A stretch of 64,000 bases of DNA from assembly GCA_017798125.1 (NCBI GenBank), contig CP059070.1, positions 1,116,001 through 1,180,000 of the forward strand, given 5' to 3'. Both the position numbers and the translations under genes were made by a program. Below the pieces are notes generated by a model. It was given only the letters and a program-made list of their open reading frames with translations. It did not search any database and was not told the DNA's origin. Shown here one piece after another: positions 11,321 through 55,479 of this stretch (position 1 is the first letter of the stretch; each line of letters begins with the position of its first letter). This DNA is from Cryomorphaceae bacterium (GTDB lineage: Bacteria > Bacteroidota > Bacteroidia > Flavobacteriales > ECT2AJA-044).

Positions 11321-11324
11321 TTGA

Positions 11325-12470: not shown

Positions 12471-12471
12471 A

Positions 12472-14364: not shown

Positions 14365-14365
14365 G

Positions 14366-15142
14366 ATGAGAATAGTATTCTTGGGTTGTACGCAATTTAG
14401 TGAAGCGATACTTCAGCATTTGATTGAAATTGGAGCTGAAATAGTTGGAATATGCTCCATACCCAAAAGCTTTAAGATTAGCTACAGTTCAGAAGAGGTA
14501 GTCAACTATAACTATGCAGATCTAAGGCCGTACTCAGAACAATTAGGTGTTCCATATTTTCTTGTGAATTCTCAAAGTGGGTGTAGGATGTCGGATTATG
14601 CGGATTCACTCAAGAAATTGAACCCCGACGTCATGCTCGTCATGGGCTGGTATTACATGGTGAATAAATCCTTGAGGTCAGTAGCAAGGCTTGGAGCATG
14701 GGGGATTCACGCCTCACTGCTTCCAAAATATGCAGGTGGAGCGCCATTGGTATGGGCTATGATTGAAGGGCAACACGAGACAGGAGTTACTCTTTTTCGT
14801 TTTAAAGACGGAGTGGACAATGGGGATATTATAGCTCAGAAACGAATAGTAATAGAAGAGCACGATTACATCAAGGATGTGTACGAAAAGGCCACTCAGG
14901 CTTCAAAAGAAACACTCACGCAAGTATTGAATGCTGAATCAGTGAATTTCGTACCGCAGGATGAAGACAAGATCGAAATTTACCCCCAAAGAAGTCCAAA
15001 GGATGGAGAGATTGATTGGGATCAGAGTGCCAAGGAGATTTATGACTTTATAAGGGCTCAATCTGAACCCTACCCAGGGGCATGGACTACGATAAAGGGC
15101 AAGAAAATAACTATTTGGAAGGCTACAATAGAAGAAATATGA
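14366..15142 (+). CDS. Formyltransferase-fold protein (Fmt-like), probable sugar N-formyltransferase
   Basis: A 258-residue protein of the methionyl-tRNA / sugar formyltransferase N-terminal family. The active-site region reads WGIHASLLPKYAGGAP, with His115, then ETGVTLF and DGVDNGDI with Asp151. The canonical catalytic triad is Asn-x-His...Asp; here the Asn position is Gly113. Context (aminotransferase and AsnB upstream, amidine trio downstream) suggests transfer of formyl from N10-formyl-tetrahydrofolate to an amino sugar. It lacks the C-terminal tRNA-binding domain of true Fmt, which argues against initiator-tRNA formylation. The next gene starts in an ATGA overlap. Confidence 0.78.
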   Translation: MRIVFLGCTQFSEAILQHLIEIGAEIVGICSIPKSFKISYSSEEVVNYNYADLRPYSEQLGVPYFLVNSQSGCRMSDYADSLKKLNPDVMLVMGWYYMVNKSLRSVARLGAWGIHASLLPKYAGGAPLVWAMIEGQHETGVTLFRFKDGVDNGDIIAQKRIVIEEHDYIKDVYEKATQASKETLTQVLNAESVNFVPQDEDKIEIYPQRSPKDGEIDWDQSAKEIYDFIRAQSEPYPGAWTTIKGKKITIWKATIEEI

Positions 15143-16314
15143 TTGAAAGGCAAGGCGACATCAATAAATCGAACCTTCAGATTTGCTCTCGTTGTATATA
15201 CGATGAGCGAGTTAATGGAATTGAGTTTGACGAAGATGGGGTATGCAATTATTGTAAGCAGGTAGATGATTTAAAGGAGCAGTTCGGGACAGGGCAAGAA
15301 AAAGGTAAAAAAGCCCTAGAAGATATAATCAGCGAGATCAAGAAAGACGGAAAAGGTAAAAAATACGACTGTATGGTCGGTGTGAGTGGGGGAACGGATA
15401 GTAGCTATATGCTCTACTGGGCCGTTCAAAAAGGGTTGAGGCCTTTGGCAGTACATTACGACAATACATGGAATTCGGCAATCGCAACTGAGAACATAAG
15501 GAAGGTGACAAGCGCTCTCAATATTGACCTTTTTACCTTAGTTGTAGACAATAAAGAGTCGGACGATATATTCAAATCTTTCTTTAAAGCAAGTGTTGCT
15601 GAAATAGAGGCTTCGACGGATTTAGCATTGGCTGAGACGTTGTATCGAGCCGCTTCCAAATACAAAGTCAAGTACGTTTTAGAGGGACATTCCTTTGTAA
15701 CGGAGGGGATTACGCCTGTAGGTAGAAATTACTTTGACGGAAAGTACATTAAGTCCATCCATAAGAAATACGGTAGCCTACCAATGAAGACCTATCCCTT
15801 AATGACCTTTTGGAGGTTTCTTTACTGGACTGTTTTCAAACGGATAAAAAAAATCAGGCCTTATTGGTATATGGATTATTCAAAGAGCGAGGCCAAAGAG
15901 TTTCTCTCGAAAGAATTTAACTGGGAGTACTACGGCGGACACCATTTAGAGAACAGGATGACGGCATTTTTTCATAGCTACTATTTGCCGAATAAATTCA
16001 ACACGGACATGAGGAATAATACCTTGTCTGCGGAGGTTCGAATGGGCTTGAAAACACGAAGCGAGGCCTGGGAGGAGTATAACAGCGAGCCTCACATGGA
16101 AGAAGAGCTGCTTGAGTACTTTAGAAAACGACTAAAGTTATCGGAAACTGAATTCGATGAAATTATGTCGCGTCCACCGAGAAGCTGGAATGAATTCCCA
16201 ACGTATAAAAAGCGCTTTGAGCGGTTAAGGCCATTATTTAAGGTTTTGGCTCATAGCAATTTAGTTCCAATGAGCTTTTATTTAAAATATTGTTTCCCAG
16301 CAAAAGTTGATTAG
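15139..16314 (+). CDS. N-acetyl sugar amidotransferase, WbpG/PseA-type
   Basis: An ATP-dependent PP-loop amidotransferase of 391 residues. I use the ATG at 15139, in an ATGA overlap with the formyltransferase, because it places the zinc-ribbon pairs Cys16-x2-Cys19 and Cys36-x2-Cys39 at the N-terminus as in the family; a longer upstream frame only reads through the formyltransferase end. The PP-loop SGGTDSS is at 83-89. WbpG in Pseudomonas and PseA in Campylobacter are linked to conversion of an acetamido group to an acetamidino group, and WbpG works with HisH- and HisF-like partners. The same two partners follow here immediately, so an amidine substituent is strongly suggested. Confidence 0.85.
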   Translation: MIERQGDINKSNLQICSRCIYDERVNGIEFDEDGVCNYCKQVDDLKEQFGTGQEKGKKALEDIISEIKKDGKGKKYDCMVGVSGGTDSSYMLYWAVQKGLRPLAVHYDNTWNSAIATENIRKVTSALNIDLFTLVVDNKESDDIFKSFFKASVAEIEASTDLALAETLYRAASKYKVKYVLEGHSFVTEGITPVGRNYFDGKYIKSIHKKYGSLPMKTYPLMTFWRFLYWTVFKRIKKIRPYWYMDYSKSEAKEFLSKEFNWEYYGGHHLENRMTAFFHSYYLPNKFNTDMRNNTLSAEVRMGLKTRSEAWEEYNSEPHMEEELLEYFRKRLKLSETEFDEIMSRPPRSWNEFPTYKKRFERLRPLFKVLAHSNLVPMSFYLKYCFPAKVD

Positions 16315-16950
16315 ATGATCACTATCGTTGATTATGGAATGGGAAATTTGGGCTCTCTTCGAAATATGTTCAAGAGATTGAAGACTCCGGTAACCATTGA
16401 ATCAGACCCAGATGTGGTGCTTCGAGCATCAAAGATTTTGTTGCCGGGCGTTGGGGCCTTTGATTCAGCCATGAAAAGAATCAATGAATCCGGCCTTCGA
16501 GAAGCGCTCTTGGAAAGCGTTGTAACTCAAAATACTCCGATTTTAGGGATATGCTTAGGTATGCAATTGCTTGTCGAAGGATCCGAAGAAGGGAACCTCG
16601 AGGGTTTGGGGTTCATCAAGGGCTATGTGCGCCGGTTTAAGTTCCAAGATAACTCACTGAAAATTCCCCATATGGGCTGGAATGAAGTTTCGGATTACGG
16701 AGGAACGCAACTTTTTAAGGGATTGAACGAACTCACTCTTGAAGAGGAAAATCCGCGCTTTTATTTTGTACACAGCTATCACGTTGAATTATCCAATGAC
16801 GAGGATGTTGCCTTTAAGACGGAATATGGTCATGAGTTCAATTCAGCTTTAAAGCGAGGACATGTTTTGGGAGCGCAATTCCACCCAGAAAAGAGCCATA
16901 AGTTCGGTATGCAGTTCTTGAGAAATTTTATAGAATACGAAGGTGCTTAG
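16315..16950 (+). CDS. HisH-like glutamine amidotransferase (amidine module)
   Basis: A class I glutamine amidotransferase of 211 residues with nucleophile Cys80 in GICLGMQLL and the His190/Glu192 pair in QFHPEKSH. It resembles the HisH glutaminase of imidazole-glycerol-phosphate synthase. It begins directly after the WbpG-type gene and overlaps the HisF-like gene by 8 bp, with no other histidine genes nearby. Its role is therefore taken to be release of ammonia from glutamine for the WbpG-type enzyme, as for Pseudomonas HisH2. Confidence 0.88.
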   Translation: MITIVDYGMGNLGSLRNMFKRLKTPVTIESDPDVVLRASKILLPGVGAFDSAMKRINESGLREALLESVVTQNTPILGICLGMQLLVEGSEEGNLEGLGFIKGYVRRFKFQDNSLKIPHMGWNEVSDYGGTQLFKGLNELTLEEENPRFYFVHSYHVELSNDEDVAFKTEYGHEFNSALKRGHVLGAQFHPEKSHKFGMQFLRNFIEYEGA

Positions 16951-17701
16951 GACTCGAGTTATTCCGACTTTGTTGCTTTCGGGTGAAAGCCTAGTCAAAA
17001 CAAAGAAGTTTAAAAAACCCGGATATATCGGTGACGCCGTCAATACGGTCAGGATATTCAATGAGCTCGAAGTTGATGAAATCGCAATTTTGGGTATAAA
17101 TCAGAGTAGAAAAAAGATAGAACCCAATTTCAATCTTCTCGAAGAACTGGCGAGCGAATGCTTTATTCCCCTCTCGTATGGTGGCGGAATAACAAATATT
17201 GAACAGGCGAGAACCCTGTTTCAAATAGGGTTCGAGAAAATAATTATTAATAGTGCCGGGTATTATAACCCCGAGCTTATTACTGCGTTGAGTGAGCACT
17301 ATGGAAGTCAGAGTGTTATTGGATCTGTAGACTATAAAATGAGCTTTCGCGGAATTCCAAAGGTTTATTCTCACGGTGGATCGAAAAGACAGAAAGGCAG
17401 TCTGCAGGAGCACATTTCCAGATTAGTTGAACACGGAGTTGGGGAGATACTTTTGAATTCTATTGATAGAGATGGCAGTTGGTTGGGTTTTGACCTCGAC
17501 ACGATCAAAGCCATTTCAAGTGAACTCGAGGTGCCTCTGGTTGCTTGTGGCGGTGCTGGAACCACGTCAGATTTAAAAGAAGGAATGGATGCTGGCGCCT
17601 CAGCCCTTGGAGTAGGGAGTATGGTTGTGTACCAAAGTAAAGGCATGGGAGTTCTCGTGAGCTTTCCGGACCGACAAAAATTGTATAATCTGTTGAGATG
17701 A
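16943..17701 (+). CDS. HisF-like TIM-barrel ammonia-channel partner
   Basis: A 252-residue (beta/alpha)8 protein of the HisF family. The first strand reads RVIPTLLLSGESLVKT, where true HisF has the catalytic Asp11 in IPCLDV; that residue is hydrophobic here. The second HisF aspartate position appears kept in GSVDYK. This pattern fits the polysaccharide-linked HisF paralogues that dock HisH and conduct ammonia rather than cyclise histidine intermediates. It overlaps HisH by 8 bp and the next sulfotransferase by 4 bp. Confidence 0.86.
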   Translation: MLRTRVIPTLLLSGESLVKTKKFKKPGYIGDAVNTVRIFNELEVDEIAILGINQSRKKIEPNFNLLEELASECFIPLSYGGGITNIEQARTLFQIGFEKIIINSAGYYNPELITALSEHYGSQSVIGSVDYKMSFRGIPKVYSHGGSKRQKGSLQEHISRLVEHGVGEILLNSIDRDGSWLGFDLDTIKAISSELEVPLVACGGAGTTSDLKEGMDAGASALGVGSMVVYQSKGMGVLVSFPDRQKLYNLLR

Positions 17702-22874: not shown

Positions 22875-24042
22875 TTTACTGAAGCTTTACCTCCTCACTT
22901 TTGGGATCAACGTATATGGAGTTGATGTACTTGGTTTTTCCCTTACTATTCCGACCATAGTGGTATTGACGTTGGTGCTTTATTCTATTCCAAATCGGAA
23001 AATGAAGACCAATATCGCCGTGCCCTTGTTCGTTTTCATCGGTTTCTGTTTTGTTTCAACTATTCTGTATCACGATATCGGCTTCATTTATTCTTTGGGG
23101 ATGCTCACGGCTATGGCGTTGCCCTTGGTCTTTGAATACGAAGAGCGCGATTTAGTTGGGTTTGAAAAATACTTGAGATATGGGTTTATTCTGACACTTC
23201 CGATCGTGGCTTATGATCTCGGTGTAACCTTTTTAGGGTTGGAACCCCTGGAGGCCTATGTGCCCTTTTTCCGAAAAGCCACGAATTCGCCCTTGTCGAG
23301 TTATTTCGGCTACTACCGAGTTAAATCGACCTTTACCGAGCCGTCGTACTACGGCATCTACCTTTGCACGCTCTTGTATATAGGGCTTAAAAGTAAAGCC
23401 CCTTCTCGGTATTTATGGGTAATCTTTGGTGTGATCCTGGCCACTGTTTCCCTTACGGCTGTGGTAATTTCGGGGTTCATTTTCGCCCATTGGGCATATT
23501 CAAACGGTAGAATTGGTTTTCGATATGTTTTGCTCTTTGTGGCCATACTGTTGTTTTTGCCAGCCGGATTCGACCTTATCATTAATCGGATAACAGAGAC
23601 TTTTTCAAGCATCAGCAGCTCTTCTTTTGAAGGTAGCGAAGGAGTACGGGCCAACAGTATCTTTGTTATGTTCAATTACCTTAATGAGGGTGGGGTGAAG
23701 CAGTTTTTCTTAGGTGAGGGATATTCACATTACGACAAATGGCTCATTGAGCGATTCAAGGGAAACCCGCTCATTGGATATTCAAGGGGGCAGATCTTCA
23801 ATGCCTTTGCAGTTGTAGGCTTGTCGGTTGGAGTTTTGGGCCTATTGCTATACCTGAACCTGCTTTTCAGGTTGTCGTTGGATTCGAAATTTAACCGTTT
23901 CGAAATAGGATTGCATGCTGCGATTCAGTTTAGCTTGGCTTTTATCGTGAGTTATTTATTCTGGGGGGTACTTATTTTAATTGGATTATCGAATGCGCAT
24001 TCGAGGTTCAAGCAACTGAAAAATCATCCGCATGATCGATAA
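22864..24042 (+). CDS. O-antigen/capsule polymerase, Wzy-like
   Basis: A 392-residue inner-membrane protein with about ten hydrophobic segments and a larger periplasmic loop in the middle (around residues 120-170). That loop contains SPLSSYFGYYRVKSTFTEPSYYG, the STFxEPSYYG type of motif seen in polysaccharide polymerases and ligases of the Wzy/WaaL group. Sequence conservation in Wzy proteins is low, so the call rests on topology, that loop and position behind Wzx and GT4. It would link repeat units in the periplasm. It overlaps the next gene by 11 bp. Confidence 0.82.
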   Translation: MINNLLKLYLLTFGINVYGVDVLGFSLTIPTIVVLTLVLYSIPNRKMKTNIAVPLFVFIGFCFVSTILYHDIGFIYSLGMLTAMALPLVFEYEERDLVGFEKYLRYGFILTLPIVAYDLGVTFLGLEPLEAYVPFFRKATNSPLSSYFGYYRVKSTFTEPSYYGIYLCTLLYIGLKSKAPSRYLWVIFGVILATVSLTAVVISGFIFAHWAYSNGRIGFRYVLLFVAILLFLPAGFDLIINRITETFSSISSSSFEGSEGVRANSIFVMFNYLNEGGVKQFFLGEGYSHYDKWLIERFKGNPLIGYSRGQIFNAFAVVGLSVGVLGLLLYLNLLFRLSLDSKFNRFEIGLHAAIQFSLAFIVSYLFWGVLILIGLSNAHSRFKQLKNHPHDR

Positions 24043-25120
24043 AGTCCTGAGAACGATAAGGCACGAGGGAATGGATGCCGTTTTGGATAAAGCAAGAAAG
24101 CGGCTATTGTACAAAGCAAAACGCGCCCTTCAACCAAAGGATGACCGCTTTGAAAACTGGGCAAACCTCAAAGGTGCATTTAAGGGCAAACGTGTCTTTT
24201 TATTAGGCAATGGGCCTAGCCTGAATAAAACTCCTCTGCATTACTTGGAGGGCGAATACGTCATGTGTTTTAACCATTTCTACAATATGGAAGAACGGAT
24301 TCCATGGACTCCTACATTTTATATGTCCACGGATAATCTGGTACTTCAAGATCTTTTAGGGCAGCTCAATGATCTAATTGAACGTTACGACTATAGTTTC
24401 TTCCCTGACATTCATTTTCGGGGAGCGGAATTTTACTCGAAAGTCGACAATAGAGGAGATGCTTATTGGCTCAAGCAGGTGCATGGGCTAGGGTTTTCTC
24501 GAGAAATGCCCGAAGTTTATTTGGGGGGATCGGTGATCTATGAAGGCTTTCAGGTACTGGAGTACTTGGGTTTTGACGAAATCTACTTTATCGGAGTGGA
24601 TATGAGTTTTGTGGTTCACAAATCCTCAAAAAAACTGAATAGGAATCAAACGGATATAGAATCGAATAAAGACGATGATCCAAACCATTTCGACCCTCGT
24701 TACTTTGGAAAGAAAAAAAGGTATCATCAGCCCGAACAATATGTCATTGATAATATTAGGAACCACCTCGCTTATTTATCCGGTATCAATGGAGTTGGAG
24801 AAAAAATAGTCAATGCTGGGATAGACAGTACCGTGAATGATTTTAAGAGAGTGAATTTTACCGACTTATTCTCCAGAACGCTAGAAGAAGAAAAGACCCT
24901 TGAGGGTAAATTAATCTCGAAATATTGTCAACATCAATCCCTTGAAGATTTCATTAGAGTAGAAGACGAATTGGGAATTGATGTAACGGAAACTCAAGGG
25001 TTAGGTAATTTTTATACAACGTCGGAGCGCGGCCCCGACATGGTAAAATTGTCTATTTTTACGCATATTCCCTTGGGCCCATTCCGGGAGCACTATGTCT
25101 TCATCAAAAGAAAACCCTAG
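24032..25120 (+). CDS. DUF115 / GT42-sialyltransferase-like protein
   Basis: A 362-residue protein. After a basic N-terminal helix the conserved block KGKRVFLLGNGPSLNKT (GNGPSLN at 59-65) is followed by GEYVMCFNHFY, then IPWTPTFYMSTDN and later DEIYFIGVDMSF. The GNGPSL...N-x-FY pattern is shared by MptE/DUF115 proteins, by the Maf flagellin nonulosonate transferases and by CstII-type GT42 sialyltransferases. Its place, directly before a CMP-sugar cassette, makes a CMP-ulosonate glycosyltransferase role attractive. I see the fold signature; the transferase activity is inferred. It overlaps Wzy by 11 bp and is followed 13 bp later by the dehydrogenase. Confidence 0.7.
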   Translation: MIDKVLRTIRHEGMDAVLDKARKRLLYKAKRALQPKDDRFENWANLKGAFKGKRVFLLGNGPSLNKTPLHYLEGEYVMCFNHFYNMEERIPWTPTFYMSTDNLVLQDLLGQLNDLIERYDYSFFPDIHFRGAEFYSKVDNRGDAYWLKQVHGLGFSREMPEVYLGGSVIYEGFQVLEYLGFDEIYFIGVDMSFVVHKSSKKLNRNQTDIESNKDDDPNHFDPRYFGKKKRYHQPEQYVIDNIRNHLAYLSGINGVGEKIVNAGIDSTVNDFKRVNFTDLFSRTLEEEKTLEGKLISKYCQHQSLEDFIRVEDELGIDVTETQGLGNFYTTSERGPDMVKLSIFTHIPLGPFREHYVFIKRKP

Positions 25121-25133
25121 AAACCATTAAAAA

Positions 25134-26063
25134 ATGACAAAAGTATTGTTGTCGCCCTCCTCTATAGGCCAGTGCGGAAGCCAGCCTATGGATTTGCTAC
25201 TTAAAAACGGCTACGAAATAATTCCAAACCCTTTCGGGCGTAAGCTAACACCCGAGGAGACCATTGAGCTAGCCAAAGATGCTGCGGGTGTCGTGGCAGG
25301 TGTCGAGACCTATGATAAATCGGTCCTGGATTCATTGCCCAATTTGAAATGCATTAGCCGTGTTGGAGTTGGAATGGATAGCATTGACCTGGATTATGCC
25401 CAGGAGCGGGGTGTTATAATAAAAAACACTCCTTTTGGCCCAACGAAGGCCGTTGCCGAGCTTTCCATTGCACTGGCCATGAACCTACTTAGAAACATAG
25501 GGTACTCCGATAGGTCTATCCGAGAAGGGGTGTGGAAAAAGTCGATCGGAAATCTGATTGAAGACAAAGAGGTTGGAATTCTTGGGTTGGGTCGAATTGG
25601 CAAAGCCACAGCTATGAAATATCAGGCTCTGGGTTGTCGGGTGAGCGCCTATGACCTCTATCCTGATGAAAAGTGGATGTCGGAGAACGGAGTCTTGTCA
25701 AAAAGCTTTGAGGAGGTTCTCAAGAATTCCGATTTAATCTCTATTCATGTTCCCGGCGGTAGTTTCGATGGGGCTGTTATTGGAAGGGCTGAATTAAATT
25801 TGGTCAAACACAATGCCGTTTTAATAAATCTTTCCCGGGGAGGCGTTGTGGATGAAGCTGCCTTGTTTGACTTTCTCAAAAAAAATGAAACGGCCAAGGC
25901 CGCTTTGGATGTATTTAGTGAGGAGCCGTATTCAGGGCCATTTACAAAATTGGAAAATGTGGTATTGACACCCCATTTAGGGTCTTATGCAAAGGAAGGT
26001 AAACTAGCCATGGAGGTTGACGCGGTGAAGAACCTGATGGATGCACTTGAAGAAACGAAATGA
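25134..26063 (+). CDS. D-2-hydroxyacid dehydrogenase (SerA-like)
   Basis: A 309-residue NAD-dependent dehydrogenase of the phosphoglycerate/hydroxypyruvate group. The NAD motif GILGLGRIGK lies around residues 143-152. The catalytic trio is visible as Arg in NLSRGGVVDE, Glu in SEEPYSG and His in TPHLGSY. It lacks the ACT regulatory domain of serine-pathway SerA. Position as the first enzyme of the CMP-sugar cassette suggests oxidation or reduction of an alpha-hydroxy or alpha-keto sugar acid rather than serine synthesis. It is coupled to the next oxidoreductase through a 4-bp overlap. Confidence 0.85.
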   Translation: MTKVLLSPSSIGQCGSQPMDLLLKNGYEIIPNPFGRKLTPEETIELAKDAAGVVAGVETYDKSVLDSLPNLKCISRVGVGMDSIDLDYAQERGVIIKNTPFGPTKAVAELSIALAMNLLRNIGYSDRSIREGVWKKSIGNLIEDKEVGILGLGRIGKATAMKYQALGCRVSAYDLYPDEKWMSENGVLSKSFEEVLKNSDLISIHVPGGSFDGAVIGRAELNLVKHNAVLINLSRGGVVDEAALFDFLKKNETAKAALDVFSEEPYSGPFTKLENVVLTPHLGSYAKEGKLAMEVDAVKNLMDALEETK

Positions 26064-27079
26064 TTGAAGGAAAAATGAAAATTCGAGTCGGTATCATAGG
26101 ATATGGAAAAATGGGGCAATTGCGTCATCAGGCATCTGAAGCCACTGGATTATCTGAGGTAATAGCCATTTCTGAGCCAAACTTGGTTGATGGGGTGGGT
26201 GAAGGACTTCCCAATCTGAGTCATGATGAAATTGTTTCGAGGGAAGATATAGATGCGATAGTGATCTGCACGCCCAATTTTTTGAATAAAGAACTTACCA
26301 TTGCTGCTCTGAGAGCGGGGAAGCATGTCTTTTGTGAAAAGCCGCCCGCATTCACAGGTAAGGATATGGAAGAAATCATTGCAGTAGAGCAAGAAAGTGG
26401 AAAGTGTTTGATGTATGGGTTCAATCACCGGCACCACGACAGTGTCATGAAGATCAAGGAGATCATTGCTTCCGGAGAATATGGATCAGTACTTTGGATG
26501 CGCGGGCGATATGGAAAGAGCGTTACGGATGATTACTACAAGCAATGGAGGTCAAAGAAAGAGTTAGCGGGAGGAGGCATCCTCATGGATCAAGGAATCC
26601 ATATGATGGACTTGTTCCTGTATTTGGGTGGAAAATTTGATACGGTGAAAGCGGAAATCTCCAATTTGTATTGGAAAATGGACGTGGAGGACAATGCTTT
26701 CGTTATTTTAAAGAATAATGATACCGGATGTGTTGCTTCGCTGCACAGCACTATGACACAATGGCGACATCTGTTTTCGTTGGAGATTTTCTTGGAGAAG
26801 GGGTATATGGTTCTGAATGGATTAATTACCGGATCAATGTCCTACTCCATTGAGGGTGCTGAACAGCTCTCCATAGCGAAGAGTAGAAGCGCCGCGCCTG
26901 CAGCTACATTCGAAGATGAAGAGCGACTCCGTTATCATACTGACAACAGCTGGAATTATGAGATGGAGCATTTTTACGAAGCCATTGAGCAAGGATTCGA
27001 GATAAGCAAGGGCAGTAGTAAAGATGCTCTTGATTTGATGCGTGTTATGGATAAATGCTACGAACAGAAATCATTTTAA
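26060..27079 (+). CDS. Gfo/Idh/MocA family oxidoreductase
   Basis: A 339-residue NAD(P)-dependent sugar dehydrogenase. The Rossmann motif GIIGYGKMG is at residues 11-19 and the family motif EKP at 93-95 (CEKPPAF), followed by GGGILMDQGIHMMDL, the usual catalytic-helix block. The start at 26060 forms an ATGA overlap; Met6 (26075) is an equally possible start. Such enzymes oxidise or reduce ring hydroxyls of sugars, nucleotide sugars or cyclitols such as inositols. The last possibility is notable because a sugar phosphate cyclase is encoded two genes later. Confidence 0.87.
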   Translation: MIEGKMKIRVGIIGYGKMGQLRHQASEATGLSEVIAISEPNLVDGVGEGLPNLSHDEIVSREDIDAIVICTPNFLNKELTIAALRAGKHVFCEKPPAFTGKDMEEIIAVEQESGKCLMYGFNHRHHDSVMKIKEIIASGEYGSVLWMRGRYGKSVTDDYYKQWRSKKELAGGGILMDQGIHMMDLFLYLGGKFDTVKAEISNLYWKMDVEDNAFVILKNNDTGCVASLHSTMTQWRHLFSLEIFLEKGYMVLNGLITGSMSYSIEGAEQLSIAKSRSAAPAATFEDEERLRYHTDNSWNYEMEHFYEAIEQGFEISKGSSKDALDLMRVMDKCYEQKSF

Positions 27080-27089
27080 AGGACTAATC

Positions 27090-27698
27090 ATGGACAGAAA
27101 AGTATTGATTAAAAATCATTTTGAAGATTATAAAGGCCGCTTGTTGAAGTTGATCGATGAAGTTGATCCAAATGTGCTCGACCAGATCGCAACTTCCTTT
27201 ATTACAGCCTTCAAGAACGATAAGACCATATGGTTTTGCGGAAATGGGGGAAGTGCCGCTACGGCTTCTCACATGCAGGTAGATTTCGGTTATTTTGTGC
27301 GGTACTTTTCGAAAAGAAGACCAAGAGTTCGGGCACTTACCGACTGCACTCCAATCATGACTGCCATTGGAAACGACAATAGTTATGATGCTCTTTTTAC
27401 AGAGCAAATGCAAGACAACTTCGATGCGGGTGACGTTATCATTTGTATATCGGCAAGTGGAAATTCCATGAACGTTGTGAATGCTGCAAAATATGCATCC
27501 GAATTGGGAGGCACATCCATCGCTTTTGTAGGGTTTGAAGGAGGTAAGCTCAATGAAGTAGCCGACATCTCACTCTTTACGCCAAACCCGAAAGGAGAGT
27601 ACGGACCCATCGAAGATTTACATACGATGATCATGCACATCTTGGTATCGTACCTTGAAAAGGACGAGGAGTACTTGTCCGTTGCGAATCCGTCGTGA
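27090..27698 (+). CDS. SIS-domain isomerase, GmhA-like
   Basis: A 202-residue SIS-domain protein resembling sedoheptulose-7-phosphate isomerase GmhA. I use the ATG at 27090; a longer frame would run back into the previous gene. The phosphate-binding motif GNGGSAATASHM is at 51-62 and SASGNSMNVV follows in the second loop. At the GmhA catalytic glutamate position (HFAEEL in E. coli) this protein has Asp65 (HMQVDF), and a late-helix His is present in DLHTMIMHIL. No other ADP-heptose genes are in the window, so a C7 or related keto/aldose phosphate for the neighbouring cyclase is the favoured substrate. Confidence 0.82.
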   Translation: MDRKVLIKNHFEDYKGRLLKLIDEVDPNVLDQIATSFITAFKNDKTIWFCGNGGSAATASHMQVDFGYFVRYFSKRRPRVRALTDCTPIMTAIGNDNSYDALFTEQMQDNFDAGDVIICISASGNSMNVVNAAKYASELGGTSIAFVGFEGGKLNEVADISLFTPNPKGEYGPIEDLHTMIMHILVSYLEKDEEYLSVANPS

Positions 27699-28456
27699 GC
27701 ATGGAGATCAACTTTAAGGGAAAGCGAGCATTAATCACCGGAGGTTCCCGAGGAATTGGGTTTGAAATCGTTAAATGCCTGTCGGAGAATGGGGCTGAAG
27801 TTGTATTTACGGGCACCAAGGAAGAGTCTTGCCAGAGCGCACTAAGGGAGTTAGAGAGGAATGGTAATTCTGAAAATATCGAAGCCGTTGCAGTTGATTA
27901 TCTTGATAAGGATAATTTTGACTCATTTCTTGCCCACGATGAAATGCAAAAGGGCTTTGATATTGTCGTGAACAATGCGGGCACGAACATCATCAAACCT
28001 TTTGAAACTTTTGAGGAAGTCGACTACGATAAATTGATGGATCTGAATTTCCGAGCACCATGGAGTATAACGCAGGCCGTTGTTCGTGGAATGCGTCAAA
28101 AAAATTATGGAAGAATAGTAAATATTTCTTCCATATGGGGAGTGATATCGAAGCCTCATAGGGCTCTATATACCTCCAGTAAGCACGCTATACTTGGATT
28201 CACAAAAACTCTGGCTGTCGAGTTTGGCAAACACAACGTTTTGACCAACGCGGTTTCTCCAGGGTTCACTTTAACTGAACTAACGAAGAATAGCCTGAGC
28301 ACATCAGAAATGGTCGAGCTGGGTAAAAAAGTTCCTGTAAATAGAATGGCCGAGCCCATTGAAATGGCTAGAACCGTTGCTTTCTTAGCCAGTGACCTTA
28401 ATACATATATAAACGGACAAAATATCGTTGTAGATGGCGGATTCACAATTGTCTAA
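27695..28456 (+). CDS. Short-chain dehydrogenase/reductase
   Basis: A classical SDR of 253 residues: cofactor motif TGGSRGIG (15-22), NNAG at 93-96, Ser in NISSIWG, and the catalytic Tyr159-x3-Lys163 in LYTSSKHA. The start is either GTG at 27695, in a GTGA overlap with the isomerase, or ATG at 27701. Family members reduce ketones on many substrates. Coupling to the isomerase (4-bp overlap) and to the cyclase (23-bp overlap) places it in the middle of the CMP-sugar cassette, so a keto-sugar or keto-cyclitol reduction is likely. Confidence 0.87.
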   Translation: MSMEINFKGKRALITGGSRGIGFEIVKCLSENGAEVVFTGTKEESCQSALRELERNGNSENIEAVAVDYLDKDNFDSFLAHDEMQKGFDIVVNNAGTNIIKPFETFEEVDYDKLMDLNFRAPWSITQAVVRGMRQKNYGRIVNISSIWGVISKPHRALYTSSKHAILGFTKTLAVEFGKHNVLTNAVSPGFTLTELTKNSLSTSEMVELGKKVPVNRMAEPIEMARTVAFLASDLNTYINGQNIVVDGGFTIV

Positions 28457-29528
28457 TTTCCGAGTAAAGAGCTCTATTCAGGATTATGAAGTGCATTTCA
28501 CGAGTGATTCGAAAAAGGCTTTGCTTGAAACATGGAAATCCGGAGACATGATCATTATAGATCGGGTTATTTATCATGAGTATCCCGAGCTATTGGCAAA
28601 CGGGCCGTGGAAAGAGGAAGAGGTTATTGTTGTGGACGCAACGGAGTCGACAAAGAGTTACCAAGGTGTAGAACCCGTGATAGAGTATTTGATCAAAAAT
28701 GGATTTAGACGTAACCATAGGTTGATCGGAATAGGGGGCGGAATCATACAGGATGTTACAGCGTTCATAGCATCTATACTTTACCGCGGTGTCTCCTGGT
28801 TCTTTTTCCCCACGACGCTTTTAGCACAAGGGGATAGTTGTATTGGTTCAAAGACCTCGATAAACTTTAAGAATTTCAAAAATCAGATTGGGGGCTTTTA
28901 CCCCCCTGTTCGGATATTTATTGACAAGCGGTTTTTGTCCAGCCTATCTATGGCAGAATTGAAATCAGGATTAGGCGAAATGTGTCATTATTTCGTTGTT
29001 CAAAGCCAGGAGGACTTTGACCGCTACAAAACGGATTATCCAAAGGCGATCGAGGATCTCGACGTAATTAATGGATTGGTACAACGGAGCTTGGAGATCA
29101 AAAAGGCGTATATAGAAATCGACGAATTCGACAAGAATGAGCGACAGGTTTTTAATTACGGTCACTCATTTGGGCATGCGATCGAAAGCTATTATCAATA
29201 TGCTATTCCGCATGGTATAGCTGTTTCTTTTGGAATGGATATGTCAAATTTCGTATCCATGAAAAAGGGTTATTTAGAGCGGCCGGCCTTTGACCATATG
29301 CACGAGTTATTTGAGCAAATATGGAGTGATTTCAGCATTTCGGATTTAGACGTAGATGCACTGATGGACGCCCTGAAGAAAGACAAAAAGAACGTTGACC
29401 ACTTATTGGGTTTAATCTTGAATAAAGGATGTGGACGAGTGTTTAAGGATTTGACTGAGCCTAATGAACTTTTTGTTGATTGGATGCATGAGTACTTAAG
29501 AACATACCACCAGAGCAATGATAGTTGA
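28434..29528 (+). CDS. 3-dehydroquinate-synthase-like sugar phosphate cyclase
   Basis: A 364-residue member of the AroB / sugar phosphate cyclase superfamily, which converts a keto-sugar phosphate to a carbocycle using NAD and a divalent metal. NAD region GIGGGIIQD (99-107), YRGVSW, PTTLLAQGDSCIGSKTS with Lys140, and the metal ligands Glu182 (GLGEM), His244 (NYGHSFGHA) and His260 (IPHG) are all present. The AroB block AExIKYG reads GEMCHYF, with His185 where AroB has lysine. No other shikimate gene is near. The upstream GmhA-like isomerase hints at a C7 sugar phosphate substrate, as for the epi-valiolone synthases. The product class is inferred. Confidence 0.82.
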   Translation: MADSQLSNFRVKSSIQDYEVHFTSDSKKALLETWKSGDMIIIDRVIYHEYPELLANGPWKEEEVIVVDATESTKSYQGVEPVIEYLIKNGFRRNHRLIGIGGGIIQDVTAFIASILYRGVSWFFFPTTLLAQGDSCIGSKTSINFKNFKNQIGGFYPPVRIFIDKRFLSSLSMAELKSGLGEMCHYFVVQSQEDFDRYKTDYPKAIEDLDVINGLVQRSLEIKKAYIEIDEFDKNERQVFNYGHSFGHAIESYYQYAIPHGIAVSFGMDMSNFVSMKKGYLERPAFDHMHELFEQIWSDFSISDLDVDALMDALKKDKKNVDHLLGLILNKGCGRVFKDLTEPNELFVDWMHEYLRTYHQSNDS

Positions 29529-29994
29529 TACACTAGAGAACATCGAGATTTACAAGGGACTATCTCCTGATATTTACGCTGGATTAAAGTGGTTAAAAGA
29601 GGCTGCGAAAGAGCCTTCGATCCAGCTTGGCGTTTATGAGATCAACGAGCGAGTAAAAGCCATAGTGTCGGAGTACGAAACGATTGAACATTTTGAAAGA
29701 GGTTTTGAATCGCACCGTCATGTCATTGACATTCAATACCCAGTGATCGGGCTCGAACGTGTTTTGTGGTCTCCAATCATCGGGATGGAAGTAAACATTC
29801 CTTATGATCAAGCAAAAGATCGGACCTTCTTTAAGAACCCACACCCACAAAGCACGCATGTAGATATCGGTAATGGTGTATTTGCGATTATGTTCGAGGA
29901 GGACGGGCATGGGCCTCAGCATTACGTTAGGGCTCCCATGCTCATTAAAAAGATCACGGTTAAGGTAAGCACGAAGTCTGCTGAACCAGAATGA
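29518..29994 (+). CDS. YhcH/YjgK/YiaL (DUF386) family, NanQ-like anomerase
   Basis: A 158-residue protein of the YhcH family, about the standard length. It has the fold's recognisable segments HRHVIDIQYPVIGLE (His66, His68, Asp71) and GVFAIMFEEDGHGPQHY near the C-terminus. E. coli YhcH (NanQ) speeds anomer interconversion of N-acetylneuraminate. Here it is next to a CMP-sugar synthetase, which needs one anomer of its acid sugar, so it would hand the correct anomer to that enzyme. It overlaps the cyclase gene by 11 bp and the synthetase gene by 4 bp. Confidence 0.85.
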   Translation: MIVDTLENIEIYKGLSPDIYAGLKWLKEAAKEPSIQLGVYEINERVKAIVSEYETIEHFERGFESHRHVIDIQYPVIGLERVLWSPIIGMEVNIPYDQAKDRTFFKNPHPQSTHVDIGNGVFAIMFEEDGHGPQHYVRAPMLIKKITVKVSTKSAEPE

Positions 29995-30677
29995 AAAATG
30001 GAGGAATGATTACCCAGAAAGTTACTGCACTTGTTCCCATGAAGGCGCATTCAGAAAGAGTGCCTAATAAGAATACCCGTCCTTTAGCTGGGAAACCAGC
30101 ATGTCACTGGGTTTTGGAAACATTAGAGTCCTGTACGGAAATTGACGAAGTCATTGTCAATACAGATTCCACTGAAATAGCGGAATTAGTTCAAGATTTT
30201 GGGAAGGTAAAAGTATTGATGCGGCCTGAATATCTTTGTGGTGATGAGGTGAGTATCCAGCCTCTTATTGAATATGACCTGAAGCATGCCACAAACGAGG
30301 TAATTCTACAAACCCATAGCACCAACCCCTGCATATCAAGTAAGACTATTACTAGGGCTATTCAACGTTTTCTGAAGCAGGATGATTTTGATTCGGTGAT
30401 GACGGTGACGCCAATTAAGCAGCGATTTTATTTTGTTGATGGTAAACCTGTAAATCACGATCCAAATCATCTCATCCAGACTCAAAAACTAGAGCCACTT
30501 TATCATGAAAATTCCTGCTTTTACATTTTTACCAAAGAAATGAATGCTTTGAGGCAAAACCGTCTAGGATCAAATCCATTGTTTTTCGAAATGGATCCTC
30601 TTGAAGCTGCTGATATTGATGAATGGGAAGACTTTTATTGGGCGGAGTATTTATTAAATCGCAAAAAAGAAAAGTAA
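29991..30677 (+). CDS. CMP-sugar synthetase (acylneuraminate cytidylyltransferase family)
   Basis: A 228-residue cytidylyltransferase. The nucleotide-binding signature is MKAHSERVPNKN (17-28), matching the R-x-P-x-KN loop of NeuA/KdsB-type enzymes, and VNTDSTEIAE follows. It lacks any C-terminal phosphatase or esterase domain. The family activates 3-deoxy-2-ulosonic acids with CTP to give CMP-sugars. The start at 29991 is in an ATGA overlap; Met6 at 30006 is an alternative. This is the key evidence that the cassette makes a CMP-activated acidic sugar, although some paralogues act on other substrates. Confidence 0.85.
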   Translation: MKNGGMITQKVTALVPMKAHSERVPNKNTRPLAGKPACHWVLETLESCTEIDEVIVNTDSTEIAELVQDFGKVKVLMRPEYLCGDEVSIQPLIEYDLKHATNEVILQTHSTNPCISSKTITRAIQRFLKQDDFDSVMTVTPIKQRFYFVDGKPVNHDPNHLIQTQKLEPLYHENSCFYIFTKEMNALRQNRLGSNPLFFEMDPLEAADIDEWEDFYWAEYLLNRKKEK

Positions 30678-30678
30678 C

Positions 30679-31332
30679 ATGCTGACTTATTTGTCCCACG
30701 TTTTGGATGAAAACACTCCGTCATACGGAGACCGAGATCGGCTGAAAATTGCACCAAAGAGTACCATAGTGGATGGCGTTGGGGCAAATACCAGTACTAT
30801 AACGTTCACCAACAATCATATGGGGACGCATATGGATACTCCATTTCATTTCTGCGATAATGGAAAAAAAACACCAGAGTATTCAGCTAGCGAATTGTAC
30901 TTTGATAAAGTTGCGCTTATTGACATTCCTTGTGAAGGGGCAAAATTGATTCAGATCAGCGACCTTGACTTGAGAAATGTATCGAATGAGACAGATCTTT
31001 TGCTCATTCGTACTGGATACGAAAAATGGCGTTCAAATGATAAATATCACAACGATAATCCGGGACTGGCGCCCGAGATCGCTTCTTATCTGAGGGAAGA
31101 ATTCCCCAATATACGTGCCGTTGGTTTTGACTTTATATCGCTTACGAGTTGGAAGCACAGGGAAGAAGGAAGATTGAGTCATCGAGCTTTTTTATGTGGA
31201 GAAAATCCAATTGTAGTTCTTGAAGATGTAGCATTAGAAGGCTTGACTTCAGAGCCAGAATGGGCCATGGTTGCCCCACTAAGAACAATAGATGGTAATG
31301 GCGGACCAGTTACAATTATAGCATCTGTTTAG
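30679..31332 (+). CDS. Cyclase-family metal-dependent hydrolase (KynB-like)
   Basis: A 217-residue protein of the cyclase family that includes arylformamidase KynB and various lactone/amide hydrolases. The metal motif H-x-G-T-H-x-D-x-P-x-H-F is exact: His47, His51, Asp53, His57. No kynurenine-pathway gene is nearby. In this setting it might open or close a sugar lactone, or remove an N-formyl or other acyl group from an intermediate. It follows the CMP-sugar synthetase by one base and precedes the aldolase by 18. The family is clear; the substrate is not. Confidence 0.83.
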   Translation: MLTYLSHVLDENTPSYGDRDRLKIAPKSTIVDGVGANTSTITFTNNHMGTHMDTPFHFCDNGKKTPEYSASELYFDKVALIDIPCEGAKLIQISDLDLRNVSNETDLLLIRTGYEKWRSNDKYHNDNPGLAPEIASYLREEFPNIRAVGFDFISLTSWKHREEGRLSHRAFLCGENPIVVLEDVALEGLTSEPEWAMVAPLRTIDGNGGPVTIIASV

Positions 31333-31350
31333 AGAACAATACATAGAAGA

Positions 31351-32124
31351 ATGCAAAACACGAGCTTGAAATCTAAAATTCGAAATGGTGAGCTGACTCT
31401 AGGGTCATGGATTACTATAGGTCACCCGAGCATTATTGAAGTTTTAGCAGAGTCCGGTTTTGATTGGCTTGCAGTGGATGTCGAGCATAATTTGATTGAT
31501 CCGAGTAGCCTTCAAATTCTGATTTCAACTATACAGTCAAGGGGAATGGCTGCGCTAGTTCGTGTTCAGCAAAACGAAGAAGTATATATTAAGCACGCAA
31601 TGGACGCCGGTGCTGATGGGGTAATAGTCCCTATGATTAAAACAAAACACGACGCCTTATCAGCCGTGAATCATGTACACTACCCCCCATTAGGGAAACG
31701 AGGTGTGGGCTTGTCAAGAGCACAGAGATATGGACAGGGATTTGAGGATTACAAAAAATGGTTGGTAGAATATTCAGTCGTTATAGCCCAAATAGAACAT
31801 TACGAGGCTATTGATAATTTAGAAGAAATCTTTGAGGTTCCTCAGCTTGACGCGGCTATGATTGGTCCATATGATCTGTCTGGGTCTTTAGGAATGCCGG
31901 GTTCATTTGAGGATTTTGGTTTTAAAGCTAAGCTTCAGAGGTTTAAGGAAGTTTGCTCGAAGATGGGAATTAGGACAGGATATCACGTAGTTCCTCCAAA
32001 AGGGGATTTAATGCTGGAGGCCATTGATGCAGGTCATACTTTTCTAGCCGTTAGTACGGATTTTATGCTGCTAGGCGATAAGTCTCGTGCTTTAATAGAG
32101 GAGATAAATTCTCTGAGTAAGTAA
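31351..32124 (+). CDS. HpcH/HpaI-family pyruvate aldolase
   Basis: A class II aldolase of 257 residues related to 4-hydroxy-2-oxoheptanedioate and 2-dehydro-3-deoxyglucarate aldolases. Catalytic His46 lies in DVEHNLID, Arg71 in LVRVQQN, metal ligands Glu149 (AQIE) and Asp175 (IGPYDLSGSLG), and the family stretch YPPLGKRGVG is present. These enzymes reversibly join pyruvate to an aldehyde, producing a 2-keto-3-deoxy (ulosonic-type) acid. In a cassette with a CMP-sugar synthetase and an anomerase but no NeuB- or KdsA-type enzyme, it is the best candidate for making the ulosonic acid skeleton. Direction of catalysis is inferred. Confidence 0.87.
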   Translation: MQNTSLKSKIRNGELTLGSWITIGHPSIIEVLAESGFDWLAVDVEHNLIDPSSLQILISTIQSRGMAALVRVQQNEEVYIKHAMDAGADGVIVPMIKTKHDALSAVNHVHYPPLGKRGVGLSRAQRYGQGFEDYKKWLVEYSVVIAQIEHYEAIDNLEEIFEVPQLDAAMIGPYDLSGSLGMPGSFEDFGFKAKLQRFKEVCSKMGIRTGYHVVPPKGDLMLEAIDAGHTFLAVSTDFMLLGDKSRALIEEINSLSK

Positions 32125-32128
32125 TTTC

Positions 32129-33289
32129 ATGAAGAATTTTAGCGGGGCGTACAAGAGTTGTATAGTACATGAAGTAACTCCGAGCAACATAGGACGCTAT
32201 GTGTTGCCTCTTCTTAAGAAACTTAAATCACGGCTTTCGGATCTCGAGTGTTACGTTCAAATCGAACCTTTTGTAAACGAAGAAGAAGTTATTTCCATTT
32301 GTTCCAACGAGAATGTTAAAGTACTTCGATCAAATGAAGTTCACGGGTTCATTTCGAATCAAAATGTTCAAGAAGTATTATTCCTTACTTACAGTTATCG
32401 AATTCCTGATCTCTATTGGACAAGTATATATAGGCTTCATGGTGTGATGACCGCCCAGATACAACATGGCATGTATATGAAATACTTGTCAAGAGATGTC
32501 GCAGGGTTTACTTCAAATTTAGAACGAAAACTAGTCTATTTAAAAAGATTCGTTCAGCTTATATTGGCGAACAGTAATCGTTTGAGATTAATGGGCTTTC
32601 TCTTGAATAAGGACTTTCTTAATTCGGAGAATATTAGGAAATGGTTGCTTAAAGGAGATTTATCGAATATTCAGTCTGATCATTTATTTGTTTGGGGCGA
32701 ATATTGGGCCGATTGGTTTACAATGTATCACTACTATCCTGAGAATAGGGAGTTCTCGGTTATTGGCAACCCAGACTATTTCAGCCACCGGAACTTATTG
32801 CAAGAAGATCCTGAAGATGCTATAACCTATATTTGCCAAACCTTGGTTGAAGATGGGCGTATGACGAAGAAAGAGCATGATTCATTGATGGGACGCGTGA
32901 GTTCTTTTTTGCCTGACAGCCGAAAGGTGTATTTCAAGCTGCATCCAAGAAGTGATAGGTCTTTGTACGACGGTGTTTTGAAGAATTCGAACGTTACTCT
33001 TCGAACAGACTTTCCTTATACTTCGCATTACCTTGGCCATTATTCTTCTATGCTGATTCTTGGTGTTTCCGAAAAATCTGGGCTTGGGTTAATTGAAATT
33101 GATCAACATGAAGTTCCGGAGTTTTTTGAGCAATTAGCGGAAGCAAATTCGGGGGATCCGGAGAAATTAAAGGTCTTTTTAAAAGAGCCCTATAAAGGGA
33201 CTAAAAAACCTAGAAAAATCGACTACTTTTTTCTACGAGGAACAAAAGATCCCGACTTTGTCATAGTGGATAAAATAATGAAGAAGTAA
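32129..33289 (+). CDS. Polysialyltransferase-like GT-B glycosyltransferase
   Basis: A 386-residue protein of low overall familiarity. Three features recall the bacterial sialyl/polysialyltransferases and Kdo transferases: Glu241-Asp242-Gly243 after a strand (TYICQTLVEDG), the HP motif FKLHPRSD (His272-Pro273), and a Ser-Ser pair, HYSSMLIL (Ser306-Ser307). An HG motif (QHGMYMKY) and VWGEYWADW lie earlier, as in GT-B capsule enzymes. Spacing of the EDG and HP motifs is shorter than in the polysialyltransferases I recall, so I call it only polysialyltransferase-like. It follows the CMP-sugar genes by four bases and is a prime candidate for using their product. Confidence 0.55.
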   Translation: MKNFSGAYKSCIVHEVTPSNIGRYVLPLLKKLKSRLSDLECYVQIEPFVNEEEVISICSNENVKVLRSNEVHGFISNQNVQEVLFLTYSYRIPDLYWTSIYRLHGVMTAQIQHGMYMKYLSRDVAGFTSNLERKLVYLKRFVQLILANSNRLRLMGFLLNKDFLNSENIRKWLLKGDLSNIQSDHLFVWGEYWADWFTMYHYYPENREFSVIGNPDYFSHRNLLQEDPEDAITYICQTLVEDGRMTKKEHDSLMGRVSSFLPDSRKVYFKLHPRSDRSLYDGVLKNSNVTLRTDFPYTSHYLGHYSSMLILGVSEKSGLGLIEIDQHEVPEFFEQLAEANSGDPEKLKVFLKEPYKGTKKPRKIDYFFLRGTKDPDFVIVDKIMKK

Positions 33290-55400: not shown

Positions 55401-55436
55401 TTCGCGCTATGTGAACGAAACCCGCAATGGTTTTGG

Positions 55437-55467
55437 AGCCCTCGCTTTTTGGCGGGGGCTTTTTTTT
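55437..55467 (+). terminator. Rho-independent terminator after the giant protein
   Basis: The stem AGCCCTCGC / GCGGGGGCT (55437-55445 and 55452-55460, with one T-G wobble) closes a six-base loop and is followed by seven T. It lies 36 bp past the stop of the giant protein and 12 bp before the ATG of the first kinase. It rules out the upstream GTG at 55411 as the kinase start. Confidence 0.9.
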
Positions 55468-55479
55468 ATCTTGAGCGTG

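Follow-up and report, generated by a model that had tools for sequence, protein, structure and literature searches.

A widespread gene cassette with an AroB-type cyclase, predicted to supply CMP-activated acidic sugars without NeuB

To our knowledge, CMP activation of sugars is almost confined to ulosonic acids derived from NeuB or KdsA. The sedoheptulose-7-phosphate cyclases EEVS and DDGS, for their part, belong to the validamycin/acarbose and sunscreen pathways. Bradyrhizose is an inositol-fused O-antigen sugar (PMC4743980) whose genes are largely unassigned. Here we describe a nine-gene operon found in a 64,000-nucleotide stretch of a Cryomorphaceae bacterium genome (contig CP059070.1, positions 1,116,001 to 1,180,000; hereafter the window). 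A search of the open-access literature found no paper on this cassette or on the family of its cyclase, TIGR04425.

The operon occupies positions 25134–32124 of the window. All nine open reading frames are present on the + strand, with an inter-gene spacing of -23 to +18 bp, and the family of each was confirmed with Pfam and NCBIfam profiles, which bears out the tight coupling and the family names given in the first-pass annotation. The further statement that all key residues are intact holds with two qualifications: the nine proteins have their catalytic residues, which hardly vary among homologues, but the isomerase has exchanged a Glu for Asp and the cyclase a Lys for His. The first gene (25134–26063; PF02826/PF00389) codes for a PGDH-like D-2-hydroxyacid dehydrogenase (HADH), whose catalytic Arg, Glu and His are kept in 63–64 of 64 homologues. 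It is followed by a Gfo/Idh/MocA oxidoreductase (26060–27079; PF01408/PF22725) with a catalytic Lys/Asp/His set kept across homologues, for which the closest curated models, levoglucosan dehydrogenase and inositol 2-dehydrogenase, both score far under their cut-offs. The GmhA-like phosphosugar isomerase (27090–27698; PF13580, SIS_2) most likely starts at the ATG at 27090 rather than at the GTG at 27042. At 103 bits it falls short of the gmhA equivalog cut-off of 209; its phosphate-binding serines are found in 63/63 homologues and His180 is retained, with Asp replacing the GmhA catalytic Glu65 in 61 of the 63. An SDR reductase (27695–28456; PF13561) and the AroB-superfamily cyclase/phospholyase (28434–29528; TIGR04425) complete what is, as shown below, the conserved core. 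Downstream lie a YhcH/NanQ-family (DUF386) protein, a predicted ulosonate anomerase (29518–29994; PF04074) that scores 63 bits against NF040884, under the equivalog cut-off of 160, and a predicted CMP-ulosonate synthetase of the NeuA/PseF/KdsB superfamily (29991–30677; PF02348, CTP_transf_3, 98 bits). In the latter the Mg-binding DxD and the SxRxxxK motif are conserved and the closest PDB chains are NeuA/CMAS, while its scores lie below the cut-offs of both the PseF model (87 bits; cut-off 206) and the kdsB model (36.6 bits; cut-off 155.2). The last two genes encode a KynB/cyclase-family metal hydrolase, a possible lactonase (30679–31332; PF04199), with the motif HxxxHxDxxxH in 22/22 homologues, and an HpcH/HpaI pyruvate aldolase (31351–32124; PF03328), with YfaU/HpaI as its closest PDB entries and its catalytic His/Arg/Glu/Asp in 32/32 homologues.

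The cyclase scores 431.9 bits against TIGR04425 (cut-off 400) and 256.1 bits against the AroB equivalog (cut-off 305), which places it inside the former family and outside the latter, and the host genome has its own AroB outside the operon. With its relatives the cyclase forms a clade separate from AroB, EEVS, DDGS and DOIS (SH-aLRT 99). Residues were numbered after E. coli AroB, using a sequence that agrees with the AroB genes retrieved. Among 82 homologous cyclases, K250, R264, H275 and K356 are retained in all and N268 in 81. The EEVS/DDGS structures 4p53 and 5tpr deviate at K250, N268, H275 and K356, and their pocket signature is absent from the 82 cyclases. The signature of 2-deoxy-scyllo-inosose synthase is likewise absent: 2d2x, for which all 368 residues of the query matched the PDB chain, has R264 to G, N268 to E and K356 to N. 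AroB Lys197 is His in 55/82 cyclases, that of the window included. The substrate pocket of AroB is thus retained in the cyclase and altered in the sedoheptulose-7-phosphate cyclases examined, so that the cyclase probably acts on a carboxylated ulosonate phosphate. Sedoheptulose 7-phosphate is nevertheless a possible substrate, since 2-epi-valiolone synthases are reported to group near the 3-dehydroquinate synthases and yet to use this compound (PMC5133447).

To see how far the gene set is conserved, we compared the loci surrounding these 82 cyclases (TIGR04425, a family named 'putative'), which are spread over 21 named phyla and include a single archaeal occurrence of the cassette. The conserved core consists of the isomerase, Gfo/Idh oxidoreductase, 2-hydroxyacid dehydrogenase, SDR and cyclase; the SDR occupies the position immediately before the cyclase (-1) in 74 of the 82 loci. 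In 39 of the 56 fully flanked loci (at least 6 kb on each side of the cyclase) all four core partners are found, and a CMP-sugar synthetase (CTP_transf_3), drawn from several families, is found in 53/56. The synthetase genes are linked to the cyclase as tightly as the redox genes are, and the conserved neighbourhood as a whole excludes a chance association. NeuB is absent from 17 of 50 cassette-bearing genomes, ten of which carry the window-type synthetase. PseI/NeuB genes lie near several of the homologous loci. Two clusters were set aside during this survey: c18, considered as an alternative synthetase of the pathway, is PseF-like, adjoins a PseI gene in L039 and resembles the NeuA of neighbouring pathways, and cluster 22, considered as a TPP enzyme, is the surface-carbohydrate protein TIGR04326.

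In the host genome, as in the window, a search with PF03102 revealed no NeuB; the single match is an AroF-type DAHP synthase adjoining trpA. Of what a NeuB-type CMP-nonulosonate pathway comprises, the genome therefore encodes the NeuA-superfamily synthetase and lacks the PEP-dependent NeuB/LegI/PseI synthase. It also possesses a KdsA-type protein of KdsA size at 2485188 and, with a second CTP_transf_3 domain, a KdsB-type gene at 547994. These lie far from the operon, whose own set has neither a KdsA nor a synthetase scoring at KdsB level, and Kdo was rejected as the operon's substrate. The idea that the cassette makes a CMP-activated acidic sugar without NeuB is supported by these comparisons and draws further support from the predicted fold of an adjacent gene product.

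This gene (24032–25120, + strand; PF01973) codes for a Maf/DUF115-type protein, a predicted CMP-ulosonate transferase. Its AlphaFold 2 model (pLDDT 91.9) gave Maf (5mu5) as best and the CstII sialyltransferase as second Foldseek match, and in VIA Maf reached a Z-score of 12.9 and CstII one of 12.6, with values falling below 4 beyond a group of sialyltransferase, HPPK and SteA structures. Homologues are found at 19 of the 82 cyclase loci. The predicted Maf/sialyltransferase-like fold provides a candidate CMP-sugar transferase beside the operon and supports a CMP-ulosonic acid as its product. On the other side, a GT-B glycosyltransferase with polysialyltransferase-like motifs (32129–33289, + strand; PF07388, 24.3 bits, cut-off 23.3) carries E-D-G and H-P motifs that are invariant in 7/7 homologues. 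Foldseek gave the polysialyltransferase 5wcn as its best match, but the VIA-align list was filled by many other GT-B proteins, so that the modelled fold is generic by this measure. The operon sits within a Wzx/Wzc-type surface-polysaccharide locus, in which its product would be used.

The pyruvate aldolase, to which the first-pass annotation had assigned the building of the ulosonic acid, proved optional. It is present in 28 of 40 fully flanked loci without a synthetase of the c9 family and in 0 of 16 with one, and accompanies the window-type synthetase in 17 of the 21 full loci (p 0.0007); once relatedness is removed, the exclusion between c9 and aldolase comes down to about five independent contrasts (p 0.06). 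Since all 16 fully flanked c9 loci lack the aldolase yet retain the remaining core genes, the aldolase is not the general builder. Two stand-ins for these loci were rejected: a second HpcH-like aldolase is restricted to L011/L012, and five c9 genomes (L031, L034, L043, L044, L062) are without NeuB. Anomerase-like proteins are present in c9-type loci.

As a general claim, that the cassette is a broadly conserved, NeuB-independent module for CMP-activated acidic sugars is likely. The fuller account, a NeuB-independent route to a CMP-activated 2-ulosonic-type sugar for the Wzx/Wzc-type locus, is one that we only slightly favour. The GmhA-like isomerase would produce an aldose phosphate from a ketose phosphate, for which sedoheptulose 7-phosphate is a candidate; the Gfo/Idh enzyme would oxidise the aldose phosphate at C1 to a phospho-lactone, to be opened by the KynB-like hydrolase or, elsewhere, by 6-phosphogluconolactonase; and HADH would oxidise the phospho-aldonate at C2, giving a 2-ulosonate phosphate that resembles DAHP with an extra hydroxyl. 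The AroB-type enzyme would then expel phosphate, probably with ring closure, and the SDR would reduce the ketone left behind. In loci of the window type, the aldolase would next add pyruvate, the NanQ-like protein would equilibrate the anomers and the synthetase would form the CMP-sugar, for transfer by the neighbouring Maf-like and/or polysialyltransferase-like enzyme. The roles of HADH and the Gfo/Idh enzyme are inferred; the stated order of the six core steps falls a little short of an even chance, and that the aldolase works after them is evenly balanced. Support for a lactone intermediate comes from three loci (L048, L085, L090) in which a 6-phosphogluconolactonase is embedded and coupled to core genes. 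All four of the cluster-37 lactonases scored lie above the 6-phosphogluconolactonase cut-off, and the 6-phosphogluconolactonase and KynB-like genes never share a locus (0/5). It speaks against the scheme that the two together cover fewer than 30 of the 82 loci. A housekeeping gene beside zwf was rejected as an explanation, the adjoining ORF in L085 having no Pfam match. These embedded enzymes fit a scheme in which isomerase, Gfo/Idh, lactonase and HADH form an ulosonate phosphate, upon which cyclase and SDR then act. The scheme is weakest in the aldolase-free c9-type loci: a normal AroB reaction would consume the 2-keto group that CMP activation requires, which makes it difficult to account for the activated compound there. 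One doubtful form of the product is an ulosonic acid bearing, or fused to, a quinate-like carbocycle, in which AroB-type cyclisation of a hept-2-ulosonate 7-phosphate, supplied by isomerase, Gfo/Idh, lactonase and HADH, would be followed, in loci of the window type, by addition of pyruvate by the aldolase to create the anomeric centre. If true, this would imply a class of carbocyclic surface sugars in some 20 phyla.

In a non-carbocyclic reading, a 2-ulosonate phosphate would be the substrate of an AroB-type enzyme that works chiefly as a phospholyase, and the ring-opened methyl ketone would be trapped by the SDR. The product would be a hept-2-ulosonic acid, deoxygenated at its terminus, in which the anomeric carbon is preserved and can receive CMP directly. 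Although fairly unlikely, such a non-carbocyclic product would account for the aldolase-free c9-type loci and their anomerase-like proteins, and it agrees with the usual place of the SDR before the cyclase, with the word 'phospholyase' in the NCBIfam name and with the frequent Lys197 to His exchange; it leaves the window-type aldolase unexplained, and the final aldol closure in AroB proceeds readily. The version that follows the first-pass annotation starts from sedoheptulose 7-phosphate, from which isomerase and cyclase would produce an aldehyde, either carbocyclic or C7, and this the aldolase would turn into a 3-deoxy-ulosonic acid for activation. The isomerase, cyclase family and aldolase that this needs are all present, and the aldolase keeps company with the window-type synthetase, but the cyclase lacks the signature of 4p53 and 5tpr, there is no obvious enzyme to form the aldehyde, HADH has no part to play and the core survives without aldolase. 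Given the AroB-like pocket, direct supply of a C7 aldehyde is less likely than the building of a carboxylated cyclase substrate by isomerase, Gfo/Idh and HADH, and we regard this version as unlikely.

HpaI-type aldolases use pyruvate, and in another reading the aldolase would act before the cyclase, joining pyruvate to a C4 aldehyde phosphate to make its DAHP-like substrate, with the carbocycle a modification apart from the CMP-sugar. The AroB-type pocket would suit this arrangement; the full core kept in aldolase-free loci and a synthetase linked to the cyclase as closely as the redox genes make it improbable. An ordinary Kdo or nonulosonic acid pathway with odd accessory genes is most improbable: the superfamily of the synthetase and the PseI/NeuB genes near several homologous loci would agree with it, but the genome has no NeuB, its KdsA/KdsB-type genes are separate and the synthetase scores far under the PseF and KdsB cut-offs. 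With regard to the neighbourhood search proposed at the outset, for cyclase, synthetase and aldolase together without NeuB, the conserved set in NeuB-less genomes was recovered and the constant presence of the aldolase was not.

Returning to the favoured NeuB-independent route, a module with its own AroB-type cyclase would constitute a separate way of building CMP-activated sugars and would explain why many proteins encoded in polysaccharide loci are annotated as 'AroB-like'. An entire class of surface sugars may so far have escaped description, and the cassette itself points to the isolates in which to look for them. Cultured carriers include Mucilaginibacter phenanthrenivorans BJC16-A38, Dyadobacter luticola T17 and Draconibacterium mangrovi GM2-18 with the window type, and Aquimarina aquimarini Aq135 and Alteromonas lipotrueae MD_652 with c9.

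Set beside described systems, the operon shares with the sialic, legionaminic and pseudaminic acid pathways a NanQ-like anomerase, a NeuA-superfamily synthetase, an adjacent sialyltransferase-like predicted fold and an enzyme for a C3 donor. Those pathways use a PEP-dependent NeuB, whereas the operon has none and has instead an optional pyruvate aldolase of the HpcH/HpaI class, together with a core of redox enzymes and an AroB-type cyclase. The cyclase resembles 3-dehydroquinate synthase in fold family and in metal and substrate-pocket residues, and differs from it in its separate clade, its score under the equivalog cut-off, the change of Lys197 to His and its setting in a polysaccharide operon; with EEVS/DDGS it has the superfamily in common, with a pocket that differs at K250, N268, H275 and K356. 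Bradyrhizose, likened here by description alone, offers a precedent for a carbocycle-fused surface sugar, CMP activation not being described in the excerpted text of PMC4743980. By score, the window cyclase is a member of TIGR04425, the AroB-related putative sugar phosphate phospholyase (cyclizing), an entry defined as a hypothetical equivalog for which no reaction is known and to which our analysis adds the predicted pathway around it.

The nine genes at 25134-32124 follow one another in tandem on the + strand, with intergenic spacing of -23 to +18 bp, and one more ORF closely adjoins them at each end (24032-25120 and 32129-33289). Pfam and NCBIfam searches bore out each of the nine enzyme families named in the first-pass annotation, and the cyclase scores above the curated cut-off of the NCBIfam model TIGR04425 ('AroB-related putative sugar phosphate phospholyase (cyclizing)'), to which no reaction is assigned. 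The key residues, previously described as intact, are indeed present and near-invariant across homologues, except for two conserved substitutions: the GmhA catalytic Glu is Asp in 61/63 isomerase homologues, and AroB Lys197 is His in 55/82 members of the cyclase family.

The cassette sits in a polysaccharide locus encoding Wza/Wzc-like export, a flippase, glycosyltransferases and an initiating transferase. Within the same locus, a WbuX-type N-acetyl sugar amidotransferase and the HisH and HisF homologues that come after it (15082-17701) form the gene set used for acetamidino sugars, and the epimerase, PseC-like DegT aminotransferase, asparagine synthase-like and formyltransferase genes at 10328-15142 suggest a second unusual amino sugar of the same polymer. 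Further downstream, an ORF of 4639 aa (41481-55400) is a probable type IX-secreted surface adhesin: it has bacterial Ig, SprB, cadherin-like and HYR repeats, and a Por secretion tail at its C terminus. The SprB repeats and Por tail also make Bacteroidota the probable phylum of the host. Two neighbouring HisKA_2 histidine kinases with TPR come after the adhesin gene (55411-59197).

The absence of NeuB, first noted for the window, extends to the whole 2.84 Mb host genome, since its sole PF03102 match, ruled out as a NeuB candidate, is an AroF-type DAHP synthase adjoining trpA. The genome also encodes a separate AroB. The presumed KdsB, from a second CTP_transf_3 gene, and the presumed KdsA, a DAHP-synthase-family protein of 275 residues, are encoded far from the cassette.

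A single scan across 84,980 species genomes gave over 500 cyclase relatives, of which the best 80 were retained. Our neighbourhood set comprised 82 cyclase loci, including the window, from 21 named phyla. Around these cyclases we found the SDR in 75 loci, the Gfo/Idh oxidoreductase in 70, the 2-hydroxyacid dehydrogenase in 64 and the isomerase in 61. Among the 56 fully flanked loci (at least 6 kb either side of the cyclase), 39 have all four of these core partners and 53 a CTP_transf_3 gene, which comes in several kinds; all nine genes occur in identical order in five loci, window included. The proposed check of relatives found the core kept as a unit, and whole-genome searches found NeuB absent from 17 of 50 cassette genomes, ten of which have the window-type synthetase. 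Within the window's own class, only 4/395 genomes (the window's included) have a cyclase match with an E-value no higher than 1e-90, and two of these matches exceed the TIGR04425 cut-off; the cyclase is therefore rare and patchy there.

We compared thirteen AroB active-site positions, in the numbering of the Aspergillus enzyme, across the 82 cyclases: eleven are kept in all, N268 in 81 and K197 in 27. The family forms one clade apart from AroB, EEVS, DDGS and DOIS (SH-aLRT 99). Judged from these residues, retention of the AroB-type site makes a carboxylated ulosonate phosphate resembling DAHP the likelier substrate. This is not proven, because 2-epi-valiolone synthases, a group beyond those compared, cluster close to DHQ synthases although their substrate is sedoheptulose 7-phosphate (PMC5133447). 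While the first-pass proposal of a CMP-activated acidic sugar made without NeuB stands, its scheme of a carbocyclic aldehyde supplied by isomerase and cyclase is less likely than a cyclase substrate that is already a ulosonate phosphate. In the latter route, the isomerase, Gfo/Idh protein (as a sugar or cyclitol dehydrogenase) and 2-hydroxyacid dehydrogenase would convert a ketose phosphate to a 2-ulosonate phosphate, and the missing activity would be a lactonase. That idea was set down after a neighbouring protein cluster matched Pfam Glucosamine_iso, a family covering deaminases and lactonases, and ahead of its NCBIfam typing, in which 4/4 members tested exceeded the 6-phosphogluconolactonase cut-off. 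The gene is operonic with the core in two loci (L048 and L090), adjoins the operon in a third (L085), and co-occurs with the KynB-like gene in none of five loci. These lactonases are supporting, not decisive, because the loci are few and two of the five genes lie ~8 kb from the cyclase.

The pyruvate aldolase had been proposed to build the ulosonic acid, a general role that its distribution contradicts. It accompanies the window-type synthetase in 17/21 full loci and a KdsB-like type (c10) in 11/18, but a third type (c9) in 0/16, against 28/40 in loci without c9 (Fisher p 1.5e-6, relatedness ignored). On the cyclase tree, synthetase type switches at least 18 times and aldolase presence at least 20 times; well-supported branches give about five opposite contrasts between aldolase and c9 and none concordant (p 0.06, as low as a sample of this size can go). 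One such case is a Mucilaginibacter locus (L025) with c9 and no aldolase, in the same starred clade as two loci (L020 and L023) with window-type synthetase and aldolase. This exclusion and switching imply that the core product is probably shared, with synthetase and aldolase as an exchangeable ending. The three long c9 copies scanned (377-390 aa; L031 6072-7205, L064 11053-12198, L094 13294-14466) carry a Cupin_2 domain fused at the C terminus, which may stand in for the anomerase, since two of these three loci lack the NanQ-like gene. Elsewhere, an HpcH/HpaI aldolase lies behind a fused N-terminal region of ~300 residues with no Pfam match (L082 5842-7476), and a distinct cassette, seen in two loci only (L011 10-2556 and L012 1474-4025), combines another HpcH-like aldolase with an SDR and with a cyclase of TIGR04425 type that has Lys197, and a glycosyltransferase adjoins it.

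A true glycosyl donor requires an anomeric carbon, which AroB-type ring closure would use up. In the window type, the aldolase could restore it; in c9-type loci without aldolase, a ring-closing route leaves its source unexplained, and the main alternative for these is that the cyclase acts as a phospholyase, without ring closure. Both flanking ORFs resemble transferases. The model of 24032-25120 has a fold like Maf (Z 12.9) and CstII (Z 12.6), far above unrelated rows. In 32129-33289, the E-D-G and H-P motifs, which occur in bacterial sialyltransferases, are invariant among homologues, and the top Foldseek match is a polysialyltransferase; this match does not settle the donor, as other GT-B proteins fill the second structural list. 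A TIGR04326 surface-carbohydrate protein (~630 aa) near the cyclases of eight loci (L067, L081, L083-L087 and L098) is possibly another transferase for the cassette's sugar.

A search of the open-access literature, outside which most subscription journals fall, found no paper describing the cassette. It is a real, widespread and uncharacterised module for a NeuB-independent, CMP-activated acidic sugar, with predicted enzyme roles, and the finding is stronger than was evident from the window sequence alone. The characterised relatives of its CTP_transf_3 synthetases considered here use ulosonic acids, with phosphonates an exception among related nucleotidyltransferases.
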